Assembly (NCBI RefSeq): GCF_006861825.1 | Contig: NZ_VDGI01000019.1 | Location: forward strand, 6,013-70,012 | DNA length: 64,000 nt | DNA from: Psychrobacillus vulpis | GTDB taxonomy: Bacteria > Bacillota > Bacilli > Bacillales_A > Planococcaceae | Direction: 5' to 3' | Part shown: positions 9,079 through 63,396 of the stretch, piece after piece | Position numbering within the stretch: the stretch's first letter is position 1 | Layout: each line of letters starts with the position of its first letter | Notes under the pieces: model-generated | The model's input: only the letters and a program-made list of their open reading frames with translations | Told to the model about the DNA's origin: nothing | Databases searched by the model: none | Position numbers and translations under genes: made by a program

Positions 9079-10860
9079 ATGAACAGAGAAAAGTTTAAAA
9101 ATTGGATGGATGATAATTTAAATTGTAAAGAAATAACACGAAAAAAATATTTTGATGCTATAAATATAGTATCTAATGAGATGTCAGATTGGGGTCTGGA
9201 TAAAGTAGATATATATTCACTTAATGATCCTGAGTTTATCGATAAAGTGATGTCATCAATTGGTTTTATTGAGAAAAATCGACGAGGTAATCAGATGTAT
9301 AGTGCAGCATTGAATCATTATAAACAGTTTTTAGCTACAGATGTAAGTGAGGGAGAAAGTACAGTGACTGTAAATAATATTGAAGATGTAGTTCTAATCA
9401 AAATCAATAAAACTTATAAAGAAAACATGACTCCAGAAGAGCTTTATCATGCGACAAGTGTTAGCTGGGTTGCTAGCTTTAAAAAGACTGAAACAAGAGA
9501 TTTAAAGTATTATTGTCCAGTCTATCAGAATAAGATTATTGAAGTATATGATTTCTTAGGATATGAAGAAGAAATGCCGAGAAGAGAACCACCACGATAT
9601 ATTTTACAAGGGCGGGTAACATCAGAGGAGTTAAGAAGTAAATTAGTCAGTTTAGATGTAGGAGATTTACATAAAGGAAGTGGAAATCCTATAAAATATA
9701 CAAGTTTAAAGACTCTATTAGATATAAAAGAATACGTAGAGATTCCTTCAGAAGATGAAGTAGTATTGATAGAAACGTTGGGTGACGTTGATTTAATTGA
9801 TCACATCTATTCCTTCATAACATCCAAAGGTTTCAACTACTCCCTTTCCAATATCAAAAATCTCTACCTATCCCTACGTAGTAAACCATTCGTTATTATC
9901 TCAGGCATTTCTGGTACAGGGAAGACCAAGATTGCGCAGTTGTTTGCTGAGAGTATTGAGGCGACAGAGGACAATGGGCAGTTTAAGTTGATACCTGTGA
10001 GGCCGGACTGGAGTGATAGTTCGGAATTATTAGGCTATGTGGATTTGAAGGGTGAATTTCAGAGAGGTCCACTGACAGAGATGGTTGAGCATGCGATGGA
10101 TCATCCAAATCTGCCACATTTCGTTCTTCTAGATGAGATGAATTTAGCACGGGTAGAATATTATTTTAGTGATGTATTAAGTGTGATGGAAAGTCGTAAA
10201 AGAGATGGCGACAAGATAACTTCTTCGCTACTCTTAGATGGGAAGTATACGGGTCGTGAGATAAAGTTGCCTGAAAATCTTTATATTATTGGTACGGTGA
10301 ATATGGATGAAACAACGCATCCTTTTAGTAAAAAGGTGCTGGACCGTGCAAATACGATTGAGTTTAATGACATTTATCTAGATCGTTTTGATTTCTTAGA
10401 GAGTCATGAAGAGGTGGAAGCGCAACGGATTTCAAATGAGCAGCTAGAGCCAAGTTTTATTTCACTAAAAGATGTTTGGATGAAGCAAAAACCTTTAGTG
10501 GAAAAAGTGTCGCAAAAATTAGCGGATATTAATAAATATTTAGAATCGATTAATGCGCACGTTGGTTATCGTGTGCGGGATGAGATTTGCTTTTATATGG
10601 TACATAACGAAAATGCGGAATTATTAGAGGAACACGAAGCATTTGATTTTTGTGTGATGCAAAAGATTTTACCGCGAATTACAGGTAGTGATGGGCGAAT
10701 TGATCAATTGTTAGAGAATTTATTTACCTATATGACAGGTGTACCATACGATGCTGACAGTGTTCAAGAATCTAGAGAATACCCTCGTAGTGCAAAAAAA
10801 GTTGCAGAAATGTTAAGGAGGTATCATACGGATGGCTTCACGTCTTTCTGGATTTCCTAA
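9079..10860 (+). CDS. McrB-like AAA+ GTPase of a restriction system
   Basis: This 593-aa protein is the NTP-driven motor subunit of a McrBC-type restriction complex. Walker A GISGTGKT lies at 276-283, Walker B LLDEMN at 350-355, and the McrB signature (TVNMDETTHPFSKKVLDRA) at 406-424. The N-terminal 270 residues hold an integrase-like helical start (about 1-90) and a globular region at about 120-215 (ELYHATSVSW ... RYILQGRV), which I infer to be the DNA- or modified-base-reading part, as in other McrB-type proteins. ATG 9079 follows GAGGTG. Its 3' end overlaps the mcrC-like gene by 29 bp, so the two are translationally coupled. The family normally hydrolyses GTP; nucleotide preference here is inferred. 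Confidence 0.88.
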   Translation: MNREKFKNWMDDNLNCKEITRKKYFDAINIVSNEMSDWGLDKVDIYSLNDPEFIDKVMSSIGFIEKNRRGNQMYSAALNHYKQFLATDVSEGESTVTVNNIEDVVLIKINKTYKENMTPEELYHATSVSWVASFKKTETRDLKYYCPVYQNKIIEVYDFLGYEEEMPRREPPRYILQGRVTSEELRSKLVSLDVGDLHKGSGNPIKYTSLKTLLDIKEYVEIPSEDEVVLIETLGDVDLIDHIYSFITSKGFNYSLSNIKNLYLSLRSKPFVIISGISGTGKTKIAQLFAESIEATEDNGQFKLIPVRPDWSDSSELLGYVDLKGEFQRGPLTEMVEHAMDHPNLPHFVLLDEMNLARVEYYFSDVLSVMESRKRDGDKITSSLLLDGKYTGREIKLPENLYIIGTVNMDETTHPFSKKVLDRANTIEFNDIYLDRFDFLESHEEVEAQRISNEQLEPSFISLKDVWMKQKPLVEKVSQKLADINKYLESINAHVGYRVRDEICFYMVHNENAELLEEHEAFDFCVMQKILPRITGSDGRIDQLLENLFTYMTGVPYDADSVQESREYPRSAKKVAEMLRRYHTDGFTSFWIS

Positions 10861-13628: not shown

Positions 13629-13723
13629 AAGTTTTGCATTAGTCAGAAAAATAGCAGTGGATAATGTCTATTTGACGTTTTCGAAAGTATTCTATATCAT
13701 GTATAAGTACCCGAACATAATCG

Positions 13724-13760
13724 GGAGAGGTTCATAGCTAATACCCTCTATAAAAAACTA
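13724..13760 (+). ncRNA. preQ1-I riboswitch controlling queF
   Basis: The AGAGGTTC stem, the AGCTA loop, the ACCCTCT closing strand and the A-rich tail TATAAAAAACTA match the preQ1-I aptamer in order and spacing. The terminator at 13778-13807 follows at once, so the expected mode is preQ1-induced premature termination ahead of queF. Confidence 0.92.
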
Positions 13761-13777
13761 TGGATACATGACTTTTC

Positions 13778-14395: not shown

Positions 14396-14425
14396 ACAAA
14401 GAATTGAATAGTCTGCATTATGAAG

Positions 14426-14460
14426 GAAGAGGTTTTTAGCTACCCTCTTAAAAAAACTAA
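14426..14460 (+). ncRNA. second preQ1-I riboswitch, controlling queCDE and transporter
   Basis: GAAGAGG, TTTTTAGCTA, CCCTCTT and the AAAAAAACTAA tail repeat the preQ1-I architecture of 13724-13760 with a shorter loop. It lies in the gap between queF and queC and is followed by its own terminator hairpin. Confidence 0.88.
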
Positions 14461-14467
14461 GAAGAAC

Positions 14468-24963: not shown

Positions 24964-24968
24964 AAGCA

Positions 24969-25440
24969 AATCTCATTCTAAGGGATCGATTTCCGGGCAT
25001 TTATCCTGATTACTTTATTTTTGAAAAAGATCTAAACCCCAAATCTCTGTCGATATCCGCACTTCCTACACATCTCTTCCACAGCTTCTCTTCGAGTAAA
25101 TCCATCATAGAGGTTATTTGCTCGTTCTCCCTCTACAATTTCAGAGAATGGGGTTTTATTGATATTACCTAAATTAATCACACCATCACCATCAAGACAA
25201 CATGGTACTACAGTTCCATCGACTAGAATAGCAGCTTGACTACGAAGTGCATGACAAAATCCTTTACCATCATCCTCTGGTGCCTTTAAACTTGGCCATT
25301 GAAATTCATGGTCCTGGTTAATATAGATTCGCTCTGCAATTTTAATCCCGCTTCCTGGTACTACTTTCTCTTCGATTTTGAAATCTAGATTAAATTCCTT
25401 CTCCAAGATTTCTAACGTTTCTTGGTTTCGTCTCTTATCG
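24969..25440. repeat. 472-bp direct repeat, copy 1 (copy 2 at 30219-30690)
   Basis: Bases 24969-25440 match 30219-30690 at a constant offset of 5250, with only scattered substitutions and lower identity over the last 70 bases. The repeat covers the gap and the C-terminal half of the radical SAM gene. Confidence 0.9.
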
Positions 25441-30206: not shown

Positions 30207-30248
30207 GCCCGGAAATCGAATCTCATTCTAAGGGATCGATTTCCGGGC
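30207..30248. terminator. hairpin between convergent lipoprotein and radical SAM genes
   Basis: GCCCGGAAATCGA and TCGATTTCCGGGC are exactly complementary over 13 bp with a 16-base loop. T-rich but not continuous T sequences follow on both sides. The truncated duplicate at 24969 keeps only the 3' arm. Confidence 0.7.
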
Positions 30249-30690
30249 ATTTATCCTGATTACTTTATTTTTGAAAATAATCTAAACCCCAAATCTCTGT
30301 CGATATCCGCACTTCCTACACATCTCTTCCACAGCTTCTCTTCTAGTAAATCCATCATAGAGGTTATTTGCTCGTTCTCCCTCTACAATTTCAGAGAATG
30401 GGGTTTTATTGATATTACCTAAATTAATCACACCATCACCATCAAGACAACATGGTACTACAGTTCCATCGACTAGAATAGCAGCTTGACTACGAAGTGC
30501 ATGACAAAATCCTTTACCATCATCCTCTGGTGCCTGTAAACTTGGCCATTGAAATTCATGGTCCTGGTTAATATAGATTCGATCTGCAATTTTAATCCCG
30601 CTTCCTGGTACTACTTTCTCTTCAATCTTGTAATCCAGGTTAAATTCTTTTTCCAAAATTTCTAAGGTTTCTTGGTTTCTTCTTATATCT
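30219..30690. repeat. 472-bp direct repeat, copy 2 (copy 1 at 24969-25440)
   Basis: See the partner copy: constant offset of 5250 bases and high identity. Together they bracket the ABC/lipoprotein operon and could recombine. Confidence 0.9.
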
Positions 30691-31157
30691 TCATTCGTTG
30701 CATCTTCTCTTTGAAGATTCCATAATCGAAATGAAATAATGACACCTTGTTCCGCCGCTTCTTTGGCAAAATCCAGAATGGTAGATAGGTATTGTTCTCG
30801 ATTTGTCGATCCTTCATGACCGTCAAAACTATGAAGCGAGAAGTTCATTTGGCGTAGCGCCGGCTTTCCGAGTAGTTTATGCCTATTTTTCTTAATGAGT
30901 GTCCCATTTGTTGTTATATTTACCTTAAATCCTTTGGCGTGGCTAGCATCCAACAATTGATCGATTCTTGGATGGAGAAGAGGCTCTCCTTTGACATGAA
31001 GATAAATATATTTCGTATGCGGTTTGATCTGATCTAGTATGTTATTAAACGCATCTAGTTTGATAATATTCGCTTTTCGACTCGGTGGAGGACAGAAGCT
31101 ACAAGCAAGATTACACACACTTGTAATTTCGATATACATCTTTTTGAATGTTTTCAA
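30282..31157 (-). CDS. radical SAM/SPASM domain protein
   Basis: This 291-aa enzyme uses a radical SAM [4Fe-4S] cluster bound by C15NLAC19SFC22. GEPLLHP and the TTNGTLI strand are typical of the radical SAM barrel. The C-terminal SPASM-like region has Cys in GKGFCHALRS, VVPCCLDGDG, and CRKCGYRQ, for one auxiliary cluster. The TTG start at 31157 has only a weak ribosome binding site. Substrate is unknown; SPASM proteins modify peptides or act in cofactor synthesis. It is convergent to the ABC/metallopeptidase operon, and a broken second copy lies on the other side of that operon, so the two may have travelled together. Confidence 0.88.
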   Translation of the reverse strand: MKTFKKMYIEITSVCNLACSFCPPPSRKANIIKLDAFNNILDQIKPHTKYIYLHVKGEPLLHPRIDQLLDASHAKGFKVNITTNGTLIKKNRHKLLGKPALRQMNFSLHSFDGHEGSTNREQYLSTILDFAKEAAEQGVIISFRLWNLQREDATNEDIRRNQETLEILEKEFNLDYKIEEKVVPGSGIKIADRIYINQDHEFQWPSLQAPEDDGKGFCHALRSQAAILVDGTVVPCCLDGDGVINLGNINKTPFSEIVEGERANNLYDGFTRREAVEEMCRKCGYRQRFGV

Positions 31158-37189: not shown

Positions 37190-37554
37190 AGAAAATCGTT
37201 GAAAAAGGCGCGACACTCCTGCGGGAATAGCGTTAGTAGAAGACCCCACAGCGTAGCGAGGAGGCTGAGGCAAAGCCCGCGGAAAGGGAGGGCGCTGAAA
37301 AACTCGAATTAGTATTTTTGTAGGAACAATTTGCTGTATTTATTTAAGAGAATTTAGCGCGACGCATGAGACTCCTGTGGGAAAGCGAGACAGACGAGAC
37401 CCCGCACGAAGCAGAGCGAAGGAGGAGGCTCGTCGCTCGCCCGCGGAAAGCGAATGCCAAAGCGCAAAATTCTCCTAGGACTATTTGATAGAAAATATAT
37501 TAGTATAATACTTTTTCAGTGCCCTTCGGAAAGGGAGCCGTTTCAATGATTTTC
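37190..37554. repeat. R1 repeat interrupted by a nested R3/R2 element
   Basis: R1 has terminal inverted repeats AGAAAATCGTTGAA (37190) and, with a change, TTCAATGATTTTCT (37541). Inside it GGAAAGGGAG occurs twice (37281-37290, 37528-37537) and brackets a 237-bp insert that begins GGCGCTGAAAAA and ends TTTTTCAGTGCCC. The insert contains an R2 repeat (37348-37474) with its own ends GAGAATTTAGCGC and GCGCAAAATTCTC. No coding potential is seen; the whole gap 37089-37704 is non-coding. Confidence 0.75.
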
Positions 37555-37704
37555 TTACTTGGCATATACTATCGCCTCCTTAGTGCCAATTTTCCCGTTT
37601 CTGCACATTTCAATCAAATGGATTCTAATTGGCTTTCAGATGAGACGACGAATTACGGAATAAAAAAAGGGGACAGAAGAATCCGTCCACCATAATATTA
37701 ATTG

Positions 37705-42611: not shown

Positions 42612-42733
42612 AGTTTGGACAATCTTTTAAATAAGTTGGACAATAAACGTCGAAGTTTGGACGATCAGTAGTAAAAGTTGGACAATAAACGTTGAAGTTT
42701 GGACAATCTTCATTATAAGTTGGACAATAATAC
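42612..42733. repeat. array of six 21-bp-spaced GGACAAT repeats
   Basis: GGAC(A/G)AT, preceded by AGTT(T), begins at 42617, 42638, 42659, 42680, 42701 and 42722, a period of exactly 21 bases. Odd and even units differ (AGTTTGGAC-ATC versus AAGTTGGACAATAA), so the larger unit is 42 bp. No gene covers it. Confidence 0.85.
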
Positions 42734-42864
42734 AAGATGCACCCCGAGAACTAAGCATTTGCGGATCCAGAACTTTTATGGAGGAAGGGGTTAAAGATTC
42801 ATACAATAGGCTAGCTCAACTATTGAGGGAAATATAGAAATGAGCATTTTTTGTTTTAATGAAG

Positions 42865-54555: not shown

Positions 54556-54994
54556 ATTTGTCTCAAAAACTAAAGAAGTAGTAGGGGATGAACAATCCAC
54601 ACTCTATTTTTTTATATCTAGAAAATCGTTGAAAAAGGCAACACTCCTGCGGGAATAACGTTAGTCGAAGACCCCACAGCGAAGCGAGGAGGCTGAGGCG
54701 ACGCCCGCGGAAAGGGAGCCGATTCAACGATTTTCTTATTAATAGGACAATTAGACAATCCCTTCCGGCAAAGTCAGCAAAATGTTGTCTCAAAAACTAA
54801 GAGGGTACGAACAATCCACACTCTACTTTTTTATATCTAGAAAATCGTTGAAAAAGGAGACACTCCTGCGGGAACAGCGTTAGTCGAAGACCCCGCAGCG
54901 AAGCGAGGAGGCTGAGGCGACGCCCGCGGAAAGGGAGCCGATTCAACGATTTTCTTATTAATAGGACTATTGGATAACCCTTCCGGCAAAGTCA
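54556..54994. repeat. tandem pair of R1 repeat units
   Basis: Two R1 elements of exactly 117 bp (54620-54736 and 54839-54955) have ends AGAAAATCGTTGAA and TTCAACGATTTTCT. Each is embedded in a longer repeated unit that starts TGTCTCAAAAACTAA, has the ACTCTA-TTTTTT hairpin arm, and ends CCTTCCGGCAAAGTCA. Scraps (GGAAAGCGTACGCGTACAAT) follow at about 55040. The remaining gap to 55532 holds no gene that I can support. Confidence 0.8.
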
Positions 54995-56807: not shown

Positions 56808-57234
56808 AAAAGATAAGAAAGTATATAAAATTGATGTACTATGAACCCATTGTTTATAGTGCTTTTACTAGGATTAGTAAAGACTTGTAAGGGCGCTGAA
56901 AGAGTGTCATTCCAATAAATTAAATTATCTATCAAATAGCCGCTACGAGAATTTAGCGCTTTGGCATTCGCTTTTCGCGGCGTTGCCTCAGCCTCCTCGC
57001 TTCGCTGTGGGGTCTTCGACTAACGCTATTCCCGCAGGTGTCTCATACCGCCGCGATAAATTCTCCTATATCAAAAAAGGATACAGTAAATAGTTCCTAT
57101 AAAAGTACTAATGTTTCAAGTTTTTCACCTCCCTCGTTTTTGTTCATATGTTTTATGGCATTAATAGTTGAAAAAATAATCAGCATCTCTAAAATTGAGA
57201 AGCGAAGAGCGTCCGAAATTGTATCTTCGGGCGC
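56774..57234. repeat. R4 interspersed repeat interrupted by R3/R2
   Basis: It shares its start (terminator hairpin plus AAAGATAAGAAAGTATATAA) and its end (CCGAAATTGTATCTTCGGGC) with 42298-42540. A 238-bp R3 element (56891-57128; GGGCGCTGAAA...AGTTTTTCA) containing R2 (56947-57065; GAGAATTTAGCGC...GATAAATTCTC) lies inside it. Without the insert the two R4 copies are of similar length (about 223 and 243 bp). Confidence 0.65.
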
Positions 57235-62145: not shown

Positions 62146-62198
62146 CTTAATTTTGATCAATAAACTCTATCATTAACACGAGAAGTTGAAATCAATCA

Positions 62199-62525
62199 GA
62201 AAATCTTTGAAAAAGGTGACACTCCAGCGGGAATAACGTTAATCGAAGACCCTATAGCGAAGCGGCTGAGGTAACACCTGCGGAAAGGGAGGACACTGAA
62301 AAAGGTCATTCTATTAAATTTTCTATCAAATAGTCGCTAAAAGAATTTAGCGCTTTGGCATTCGCTTTCCGCGGGCGAGCGACGAGCCTCCTCCTCCGCT
62401 ACGCTTCGTGCGGGGTCTCGCCTGTCTCGCTTTCCCGCAGGAGTCTCATGCGTCGCGCTAAATTCTCTTAAATGAAATAAAACAAATAGTTCCTACAATA
62501 ATATTAATTCGAGTTTTTCAGTTCC
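62199..62525. repeat. truncated R1 with inserted R3/R2
   Basis: The 5' half of R1 (62199 on, AGAAAATCTTTGAAAAAGG) reaches GGAAAGGGAG at 62282-62291. R3 then begins (GACACTGAAAAAGG), contains R2 (62342-62467; AGAATTTAGCGC...GCGCTAAATTCT), and ends TTTTTCAGTTCCC. The 3' half of R1 is absent. R3 here is in the opposite orientation to that at 37291. Confidence 0.7.
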
Positions 62526-62598
62526 CGATGGTATTGTCTAAAATTAAAAAGTAGAGTAGGAACTTCAGAACTATTCCACACTTTACTTTTTCATTTCT

Positions 62599-62883
62599 AG
62601 AAAATCGTTGAAAAAGGTGACACTCCTGTGGGAATAGCGTTAGCAGAAGACCCCGCAGCGAAGCGAGGAGTCTGAAGCAACGCCCGCGGAAAGGGAGGCC
62701 ACTGAAAAAGTCACTTTTTTTCAAAAAATAAAAACGAAATCCCATAATTCCTTCACTTTTTAGGGTGTTTATGGGGACGTCATGCCAATTTTGATACAAA
62801 TATACTTCTCAAGTGGTGACTTTATTTTCTGAATTTTGGTTTTTCAGTGGCCTCCGGAAAGGGAGCCGTTTCAACGATTTTCT
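62599..62883. repeat. R1 repeat with 158-bp insert, copy 1
   Basis: R1 ends AGAAAATCGTTGAA (62599) and TTCAACGATTTTCT (62870). GGAAAGGGAG at 62688-62697 and 62856-62865 brackets a 158-bp insert that starts GCCACTGAAAAA and ends TTTTTCAGTGGCCTCC. Confidence 0.85.
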
Positions 62884-63111: not shown

Positions 63112-63396
63112 AGAAAATCGTTGAAAAAGGTGACACTCCTGCGGGAATAGCGTTAGCAGAAGACCCCGAAGCGAAGTGAGGAGGCTGAAGCAACGCCCGC
63201 GGAAAGGGAGGCCACTGAAAAAGTCACTTTTTTTCAAAAAATAAAAACGAAATCCCATAATTCCTTCACTTTTTAGGGTGTTTATGGGGACGTCATGCCA
63301 ATTTTGATACAAATATACTTCTCAAGTGGTGACTTTATTTTCTGAATTTTGGTTTTTCAGTGGCCTCCGGAAAGGGAGCCGTTTCAACGATTTTCT
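63112..63396. repeat. R1 repeat with 158-bp insert, copy 2
   Basis: It has the same 285-bp structure as 62599-62883. The 158-bp insert (63211-63368) is identical to copy 1, while the R1 flanks differ at a few bases. Both are in direct orientation, about 510 bp apart. R1/R2-like scraps (CTCGCCCGCGGAAAGC) lie between them at 62.96 kb. Confidence 0.85.

Follow-up and report, generated by a model that had tools for sequence, protein, structure and literature searches.

A 117-bp repeat as a highly probable landing site of an IS1182-family transposon and its MITEs in Psychrobacillus vulpis

In the stretch of the Psychrobacillus vulpis genome analyzed here (the window, 64,000 nucleotides of contig NZ_VDGI01000019.1), a 117-bp repeat, R1, occurs both intact and split by other repeats at the sequence CGGAAAGG. 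What are these inserts, what moves them, and why do they land where they do? We are highly confident that a DDE transposon of the IS1182 family, active now or until recently, uses R1 as its preferred landing site, and that the IS, its derivatives and the MITEs share their ends; most likely they also share the enzyme.

R1 and its inserts

Two R1 copies in the window are uninterrupted and have one CGGAAAGG each, three are interrupted, and a fourth contains an insert but is missing the R1 3′ part (Table 1), all of which had been described, with correct positions, in a sequence-only reading of the window. The one-sided copy is the result of a secondary deletion or rearrangement. The motif GGAAAGGGAG occurs ten times in the window (0.12 expected; maximum of two in shuffled sequence), with nine occurrences in R1 and the remaining one, at 9840, inside an ORF. 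Across the genome (4.02 Mb in 76 contigs), we counted about 214 R1 copies from R1 3′ ends with at most three mismatches, frequently in short tandem arrays; sequence stretches totaling about 1.2 Mb were sampled (the 1.22-Mb sample). On three large contigs plus the window, most R1 copies are empty; with the window left out, about 33 are empty and 15 filled, a tally that includes six odd cases classified by hand. No known RNA family in Rfam matched at the repeats, and a plasmid collection gave no match for window 36-40 kb.

Table 1 Positions of R1, its inserts and related features (window coordinates unless a contig is named)
Feature	Position	Strand	Remark
R1, 5′ part	37190..37287	+	left 8-bp duplication CGGAAAGG at its end, 37280-37287
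239-bp MITE, M237 family	37288..37526	+	GAGGGCGCTGAAAAA...TTTTTCAGTGCCCTT; contains R1-core-like hairpin
Right duplication and R1 3′ part	37527..37556	+	right CGGAAAGG at 37527-37534
R1, empty	54620..54736	+	single CGGAAAGG at 54708-54715
R1, empty	54839..54955	+	96% identity to the copy at 54620
R1-core-like hairpin	56968..57041	-	within a different repeat; without R1 arms
R1, 5′ part	62198..62288	+	CGGAAAGG at its end, 62281-62288
M237-family MITE	62289..62526	-	opposite orientation; without second duplication or R1 3′ part
R1, 5′ part	62599..62694	+	left CGGAAAGG at its end, 62687-62694
160-bp MITE M158	62695..62854	+	GAGGCCACTGAAAAA...TTTTTCAGTGGCCTC
Right duplication and R1 3′ part	62855..62883	+	right CGGAAAGG at 62855-62862
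R1, 5′ part	63112..63207	+	left CGGAAAGG at its end, 63200-63207
M158, second window copy	63208..63367	+	
Right duplication and R1 3′ part	63368..63396	+	right CGGAAAGG at 63368-63375
Internally deleted IS copy	C3:120464-120772		309 bp; in R1
Internally deleted IS copy	C23:46465-46979		515 bp; in R1
R1 without positions 61-67, sister species	G003:C1:126106-126285		
R1 without positions 61-67, sister species	G003:C1:316496-316674		
R1 without positions 61-67, sister species	G003:C1:566561-566740		
R1 without positions 61-67, sister species	G003:C1:4168743-4168920		

When 38 intact R1 copies were aligned together with their flanks, R1 proved to be the conserved inner part of a longer element with the ends ...GGCACTGAAAAA and TTTTTCAGTGCCCTC, and several elements of 212-234 bp carry these ends around R1, some with recognizable 8-9 bp duplications. 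Judged by these ends, R1 appears to be the inner part of a further MITE whose termini are of the same type as those of the inserts; the elements would then be nested, and target repeat, inserts and IS have one type of end. Neither this nesting nor the second R1 position described below was part of the sequence-only reading. In a sister species (G003), some R1 copies lack positions 61-67 and have approximately 50-70 bp of other sequence instead, so the apex of the repeat has undergone an event of another kind.

The inserts had been described as two kinds, of 237 and 158 bp, lying in both orientations; kinds and orientations hold, and the lengths are corrected to about 239 bp (the M237 family) and 160 bp (M158), with ends GAGG(C/G)C(A/G)CTGAAAAA and its complement. 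An internal 30-mer identified 47 near-identical M158 copies in the genome, 40 of which were also found by similarity. All 46 readable distinct copies occupy one R1 position, with 25 oriented + and 21 oriented -. At 160 bp, with no transposase gene and with ends in common with an IS of the same genome, M158 is a MITE. The M237 family is older and more diverse, and its targets comprise CGGAAAGG, a second R1 position (CCCCGCAGC[GWAGCGAG]GAGGCT) and R1-core-like hairpins elsewhere; the single site of the sequence-only reading stands for M158 and is one of several for the 239-bp family. R1-core-related sequence is also present inside the 239-bp MITE and, more weakly, in the IS 5′ region.

Insertion duplicates 8 bp of target, CGGAAAGG or CCTTTCCG according to orientation, which is the minimum consistent across orientations. 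The duplication is perfect in 44 of the 46 M158 copies and differs by a single-base indel in the other two, in keeping with the earlier proposal that empty sites have one CGGAAAGG and filled sites two. A length of 10 bp had been proposed from the window, because the GAG after the 8-mer matches the R1 flank in the + orientation only; copies in the - orientation read CCTTTCCG followed by GAG on the left and CCTTTCCG followed by CGG on the right, so the last bases are not duplicated and 10 bp is ruled out. GAG (CTC opposite) is instead the outer end of the element. Where the R1 site itself varies, the variant is found on both sides of the insert (CGGAAAGA in L051, CCTTTCCA in L052 and CGGCAAAG in L152), which indicates that the duplication is real. 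A six-base parse (GGAAAG) was also considered and dropped for 8 bp, since duplications of 7-9 bp next to GAG/CTC ends are seen at the second site and in every relative.

We found neither missing duplications nor variable insert boundaries, save for five of the 46 M158 copies (L042, L052, L236, L152 and L076) in which one end terminates in a trinucleotide that is not GAG/CTC. In the first four of these, the odd trinucleotide is the same as the target bases next to it and the duplication seems to be 11 bp long, as though a 3-nt shift had occurred both in cleaving the end and in joining it to the target; these four do not fit a simple 8-bp model. The 46 recent copies represent an unusually large set of events at one site, in which such apparent slips of end processing are revealed by their target-derived trinucleotides.

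The autonomous element and a proposed mechanism

The expectation that a transposase with matching ends would exist was borne out by an IS1182-family IS that lies at the same R1 site. Its 492-aa transposase gene, at the end of contig C23 (L091), matches NF033551 with 367 bits (cut-off, 270) as well as PF05598, PF01609 and PF13751. The IS left end is GAGGCCACTGAAAAAGTCC, and the first 18 bases of M158, GAGGCCACTGAAAAAGTC, are identical to it. No contig holds a whole IS copy because the assembly breaks at the IS, which also accounts for the many IS ends at contig ends: the left end and the 492-aa ORF are at the end of C23, and the right end is on C2 and at other contig ends. The length of about 1.8 kb was pieced together from the two partial sequences, left and right, and from relatives. 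The layout is that of IS1182, with a single long tnp ORF flanked by inverted terminal repeats in about 1.7-1.9 kb. All IS ends examined (13 of 13 left, 12 of 12 right) share one R1 position with M158 and occur there in both orientations, and two internally deleted copies also lie in R1. At G000:C4:155649-155853 (L178, L179), two IS right ends stand head to head with one base between them. The resulting palindrome, roughly 205 bp long and located in R1, is either a deletion derivative composed of both right ends or an artifact of the assembly.

By analogy with DDE transposition in general, the transposase would bring the element ends together and cut R1 at CGGAAAGG with an 8-nt stagger. Elements ending in GAGG(C/G)CACTGAAAAA and its complement would be joined there in either orientation, and gap repair would produce the 8-bp duplication. 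The IS (about 1.8 kb), the 309- and 515-bp derivatives and the MITEs of 160 and about 239 bp were most likely moved by one enzyme. Mobilization of the MITEs in trans is suggested by the identity of the IS and M158 ends and by their shared site, as the internal sequences of the two are unrelated and their likeness is confined to the ends. The enzyme may still be active today.

What directs insertion to R1

Relatives of the IS were found at 80 loci in named Bacillales and a few other Firmicutes, at 66-81% identity, and those with both ends span 1.57-2.17 kb. Forty-six of them have both ends and an exact duplication, of 8 bp in 25 cases, 9 bp in 20 and 7 bp in one. Their flanks are complementary at 8.1 of 12 positions, compared with 5.3 for re-paired flanks and a maximum of 6.1 in 2,000 shuffles, and a stem score of at least 7 was reached by 72% of relatives versus 15% of re-paired flanks (with the loop free to vary by two bases). 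Many of these sites have the A-run and T-run of an intrinsic terminator (for example, L249, AAAAAAGTGACTA[AAGTAATT]TAGTCACTTTTTT). The complementary flanks around the duplications show that the related ISs, for instance those of Bacillus sp. FJAT-14578 and Lysinibacillus contaminans, usually insert into the loop of a terminator-like hairpin and duplicate this loop as 7-9 bp.

Might the transposase therefore recognize a hairpin loop here too, with R1 used as a hairpin repeat? The loop duplications of the relatives favor this, as do the hairpin targets of IS1272 and TnSha1 in the same family (PMC4923244, PMC5678879) and the fold of R1 as a whole, which is better than that of shuffled sequences (DNA z -4.4) and places the site at an asymmetric bulge. 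However, the site makes no good local hairpin (DNA -2.8 kcal/mol, z +1.1; stem score 4, under the shuffled mean of 4.9), and none of about 70 examined insertions of the IS and the 160-bp MITE was in an ordinary terminator. We thus regard structural targeting of R1 as unlikely, and the poor hairpin suggests that this lineage has turned sequence-specific. Specificity for R1 also appears to be lineage-specific, because an 83% relative of M158 in a sister species (G011) is not in R1, its three copies lying in one duplicated place. A broader scenario is possible, although we give it somewhat less than an even chance: a loop-reading family of Bacillales DDE transposases may have switched here to a sequence-specific landing pad borne by its own relatives, with one transposase serving both the MITEs that contain R1 and the MITEs and ISs that land in it. 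If so, every R1 transposition would yield a new harmless intergenic landing site.

It is considerably less probable that the 8-mer CGGAAAGG suffices as a target by itself, with R1 being just the source of most of its copies. R1 sites do make up about 65 of the 83 CGGAAAGG places in the 1.22-Mb sample (filled sites counted once), but the 18 others yielded no 160-bp MITE and no IS end, three of the 46 MITE copies occupy R1 sites with an altered 8-mer, and a sufficient 8-mer would place 46 of 46 copies in R1 with a probability of about 1e-5.

The preferred reading, repeated insertion into R1, further implies that most insertions are independent. M158 copies have a median identity of 99.4%, the R1 copies around them a median of only 88% with no pair of R1 bodies at 99% or more, so the insertions are recent and later than the spread of R1. 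Spread of R1 plus insert as one composite block, inserted just once or twice, is scarcely credible and is refuted as a general explanation by this disparity, by inserts in both orientations, by site variants duplicated on each side, by sequence outside R1 that varies from copy to copy and by the majority of R1 copies being empty, although short tandem arrays of R1 are common and a few copies are indeed local duplicates, such as the pair with inserts at 62.7 and 63.2 kb (R1 starts at 62.6 and 63.1 kb), in which the R1 and M158 at 63112 are a 98% duplicate of the copy 513 bp upstream. Orthologous empty sites were sought in sister genomes, and at the two loci checked the relatives are without R1; with one genome of the species, the empty sites compared are therefore paralogous.

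Relation to known systems and other features of the window

Like other bacterial MITEs, these elements are short, leave no room for a transposase, share inverted ends with an IS, duplicate their target and reach high copy number. Most MITEs have a weak target preference, unlike the 160-bp MITE with its single position in a single repeat family (46 of 46). REP sequences are palindromes of 20-40 bp, tagged with GTAG or CGTC and linked to the RAYT tyrosine transposase; R1 is 117 bp long and lies within a MITE with IS1182-type ends. A closer parallel is provided by ISs specific for REP, which is likewise an abundant intergenic palindromic repeat; Tobes and Pareja 2006 (PMC1525189) describe IS1397, ISKpn1, IS621, ISPpu9 and ISRm22, some ISs having all their copies in the repeat, and such elements belong to IS3, IS110, IS4 and other families, with IS1182 not among the ones covered here. 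Unlike REP targets, R1 is itself a MITE interior and is used by MITEs as well as by an IS.

Within the IS1182 family, IS1272 and TnSha1 of staphylococci insert into palindromes or terminators, whereby the hairpin is lost and no duplication arises (Wan 2017, PMC5678879; Furi 2016, PMC4923244). The system in P. vulpis resembles them in its transposase family, 16-bp inverted ends and palindromic or terminator-like insertion places and, as with TnSha1 target Z, in one target being hit repeatedly, independently and in both orientations. In contrast to those elements, which delete or replace the hairpin and show no preference in primary sequence, both the IS and the 160-bp MITE of P. vulpis enter a single sequence of a single repeat. 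Rather than inverted-repeat replacement of the IS1272 type, we found an 8-bp duplication with R1 intact on each side (7-9 bp in relatives). Duplication of the loop is allowed as a possibility in the stem-loop model of Wan et al. (steps 3c-6c; PMC5678879).

In the literature covered (ISfinder and subscription journals were outside its scope), we found no report of IS1182 relatives with a duplication the size of the loop, of a cohort of IS1182 MITEs (with nothing specific on such MITEs in Bacillus) or of strict repeat specificity in IS1182. Hairpin targeting by IS1182 is already published; what looks new is the form specific for a repeat, together with the cohort of MITEs and a duplication as long as the loop. 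How DDE transposases choose their targets is poorly understood, and one clade here provides dozens of clean natural loop-duplicating insertions along with one lineage that has a fixed 8-bp repeat site, which allows a direct comparison of nearly the same enzyme in a structure-reading and a sequence-reading version. Annotators can now put a name and an explanation to R1 and to the GAGGSCACTGAAAAA repeats found in Bacillales.

The window contains several other features. A direct repeat of at least 300 bp (24964-25263 and 30214-30513, 98% identical) brackets 5 kb and lies in two SPASM-domain frames, a full-length radical SAM (30282-31157) and a short one (25032-25406). Downstream of an amino acid permease gene, a 42-bp unit (AGTTTGGACAATC...) is repeated three times in tandem (42612-42737). 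One gene cluster contains two PreQ1 riboswitch matches (13721-13767 and 14423-14466), separated by about 700 bp.
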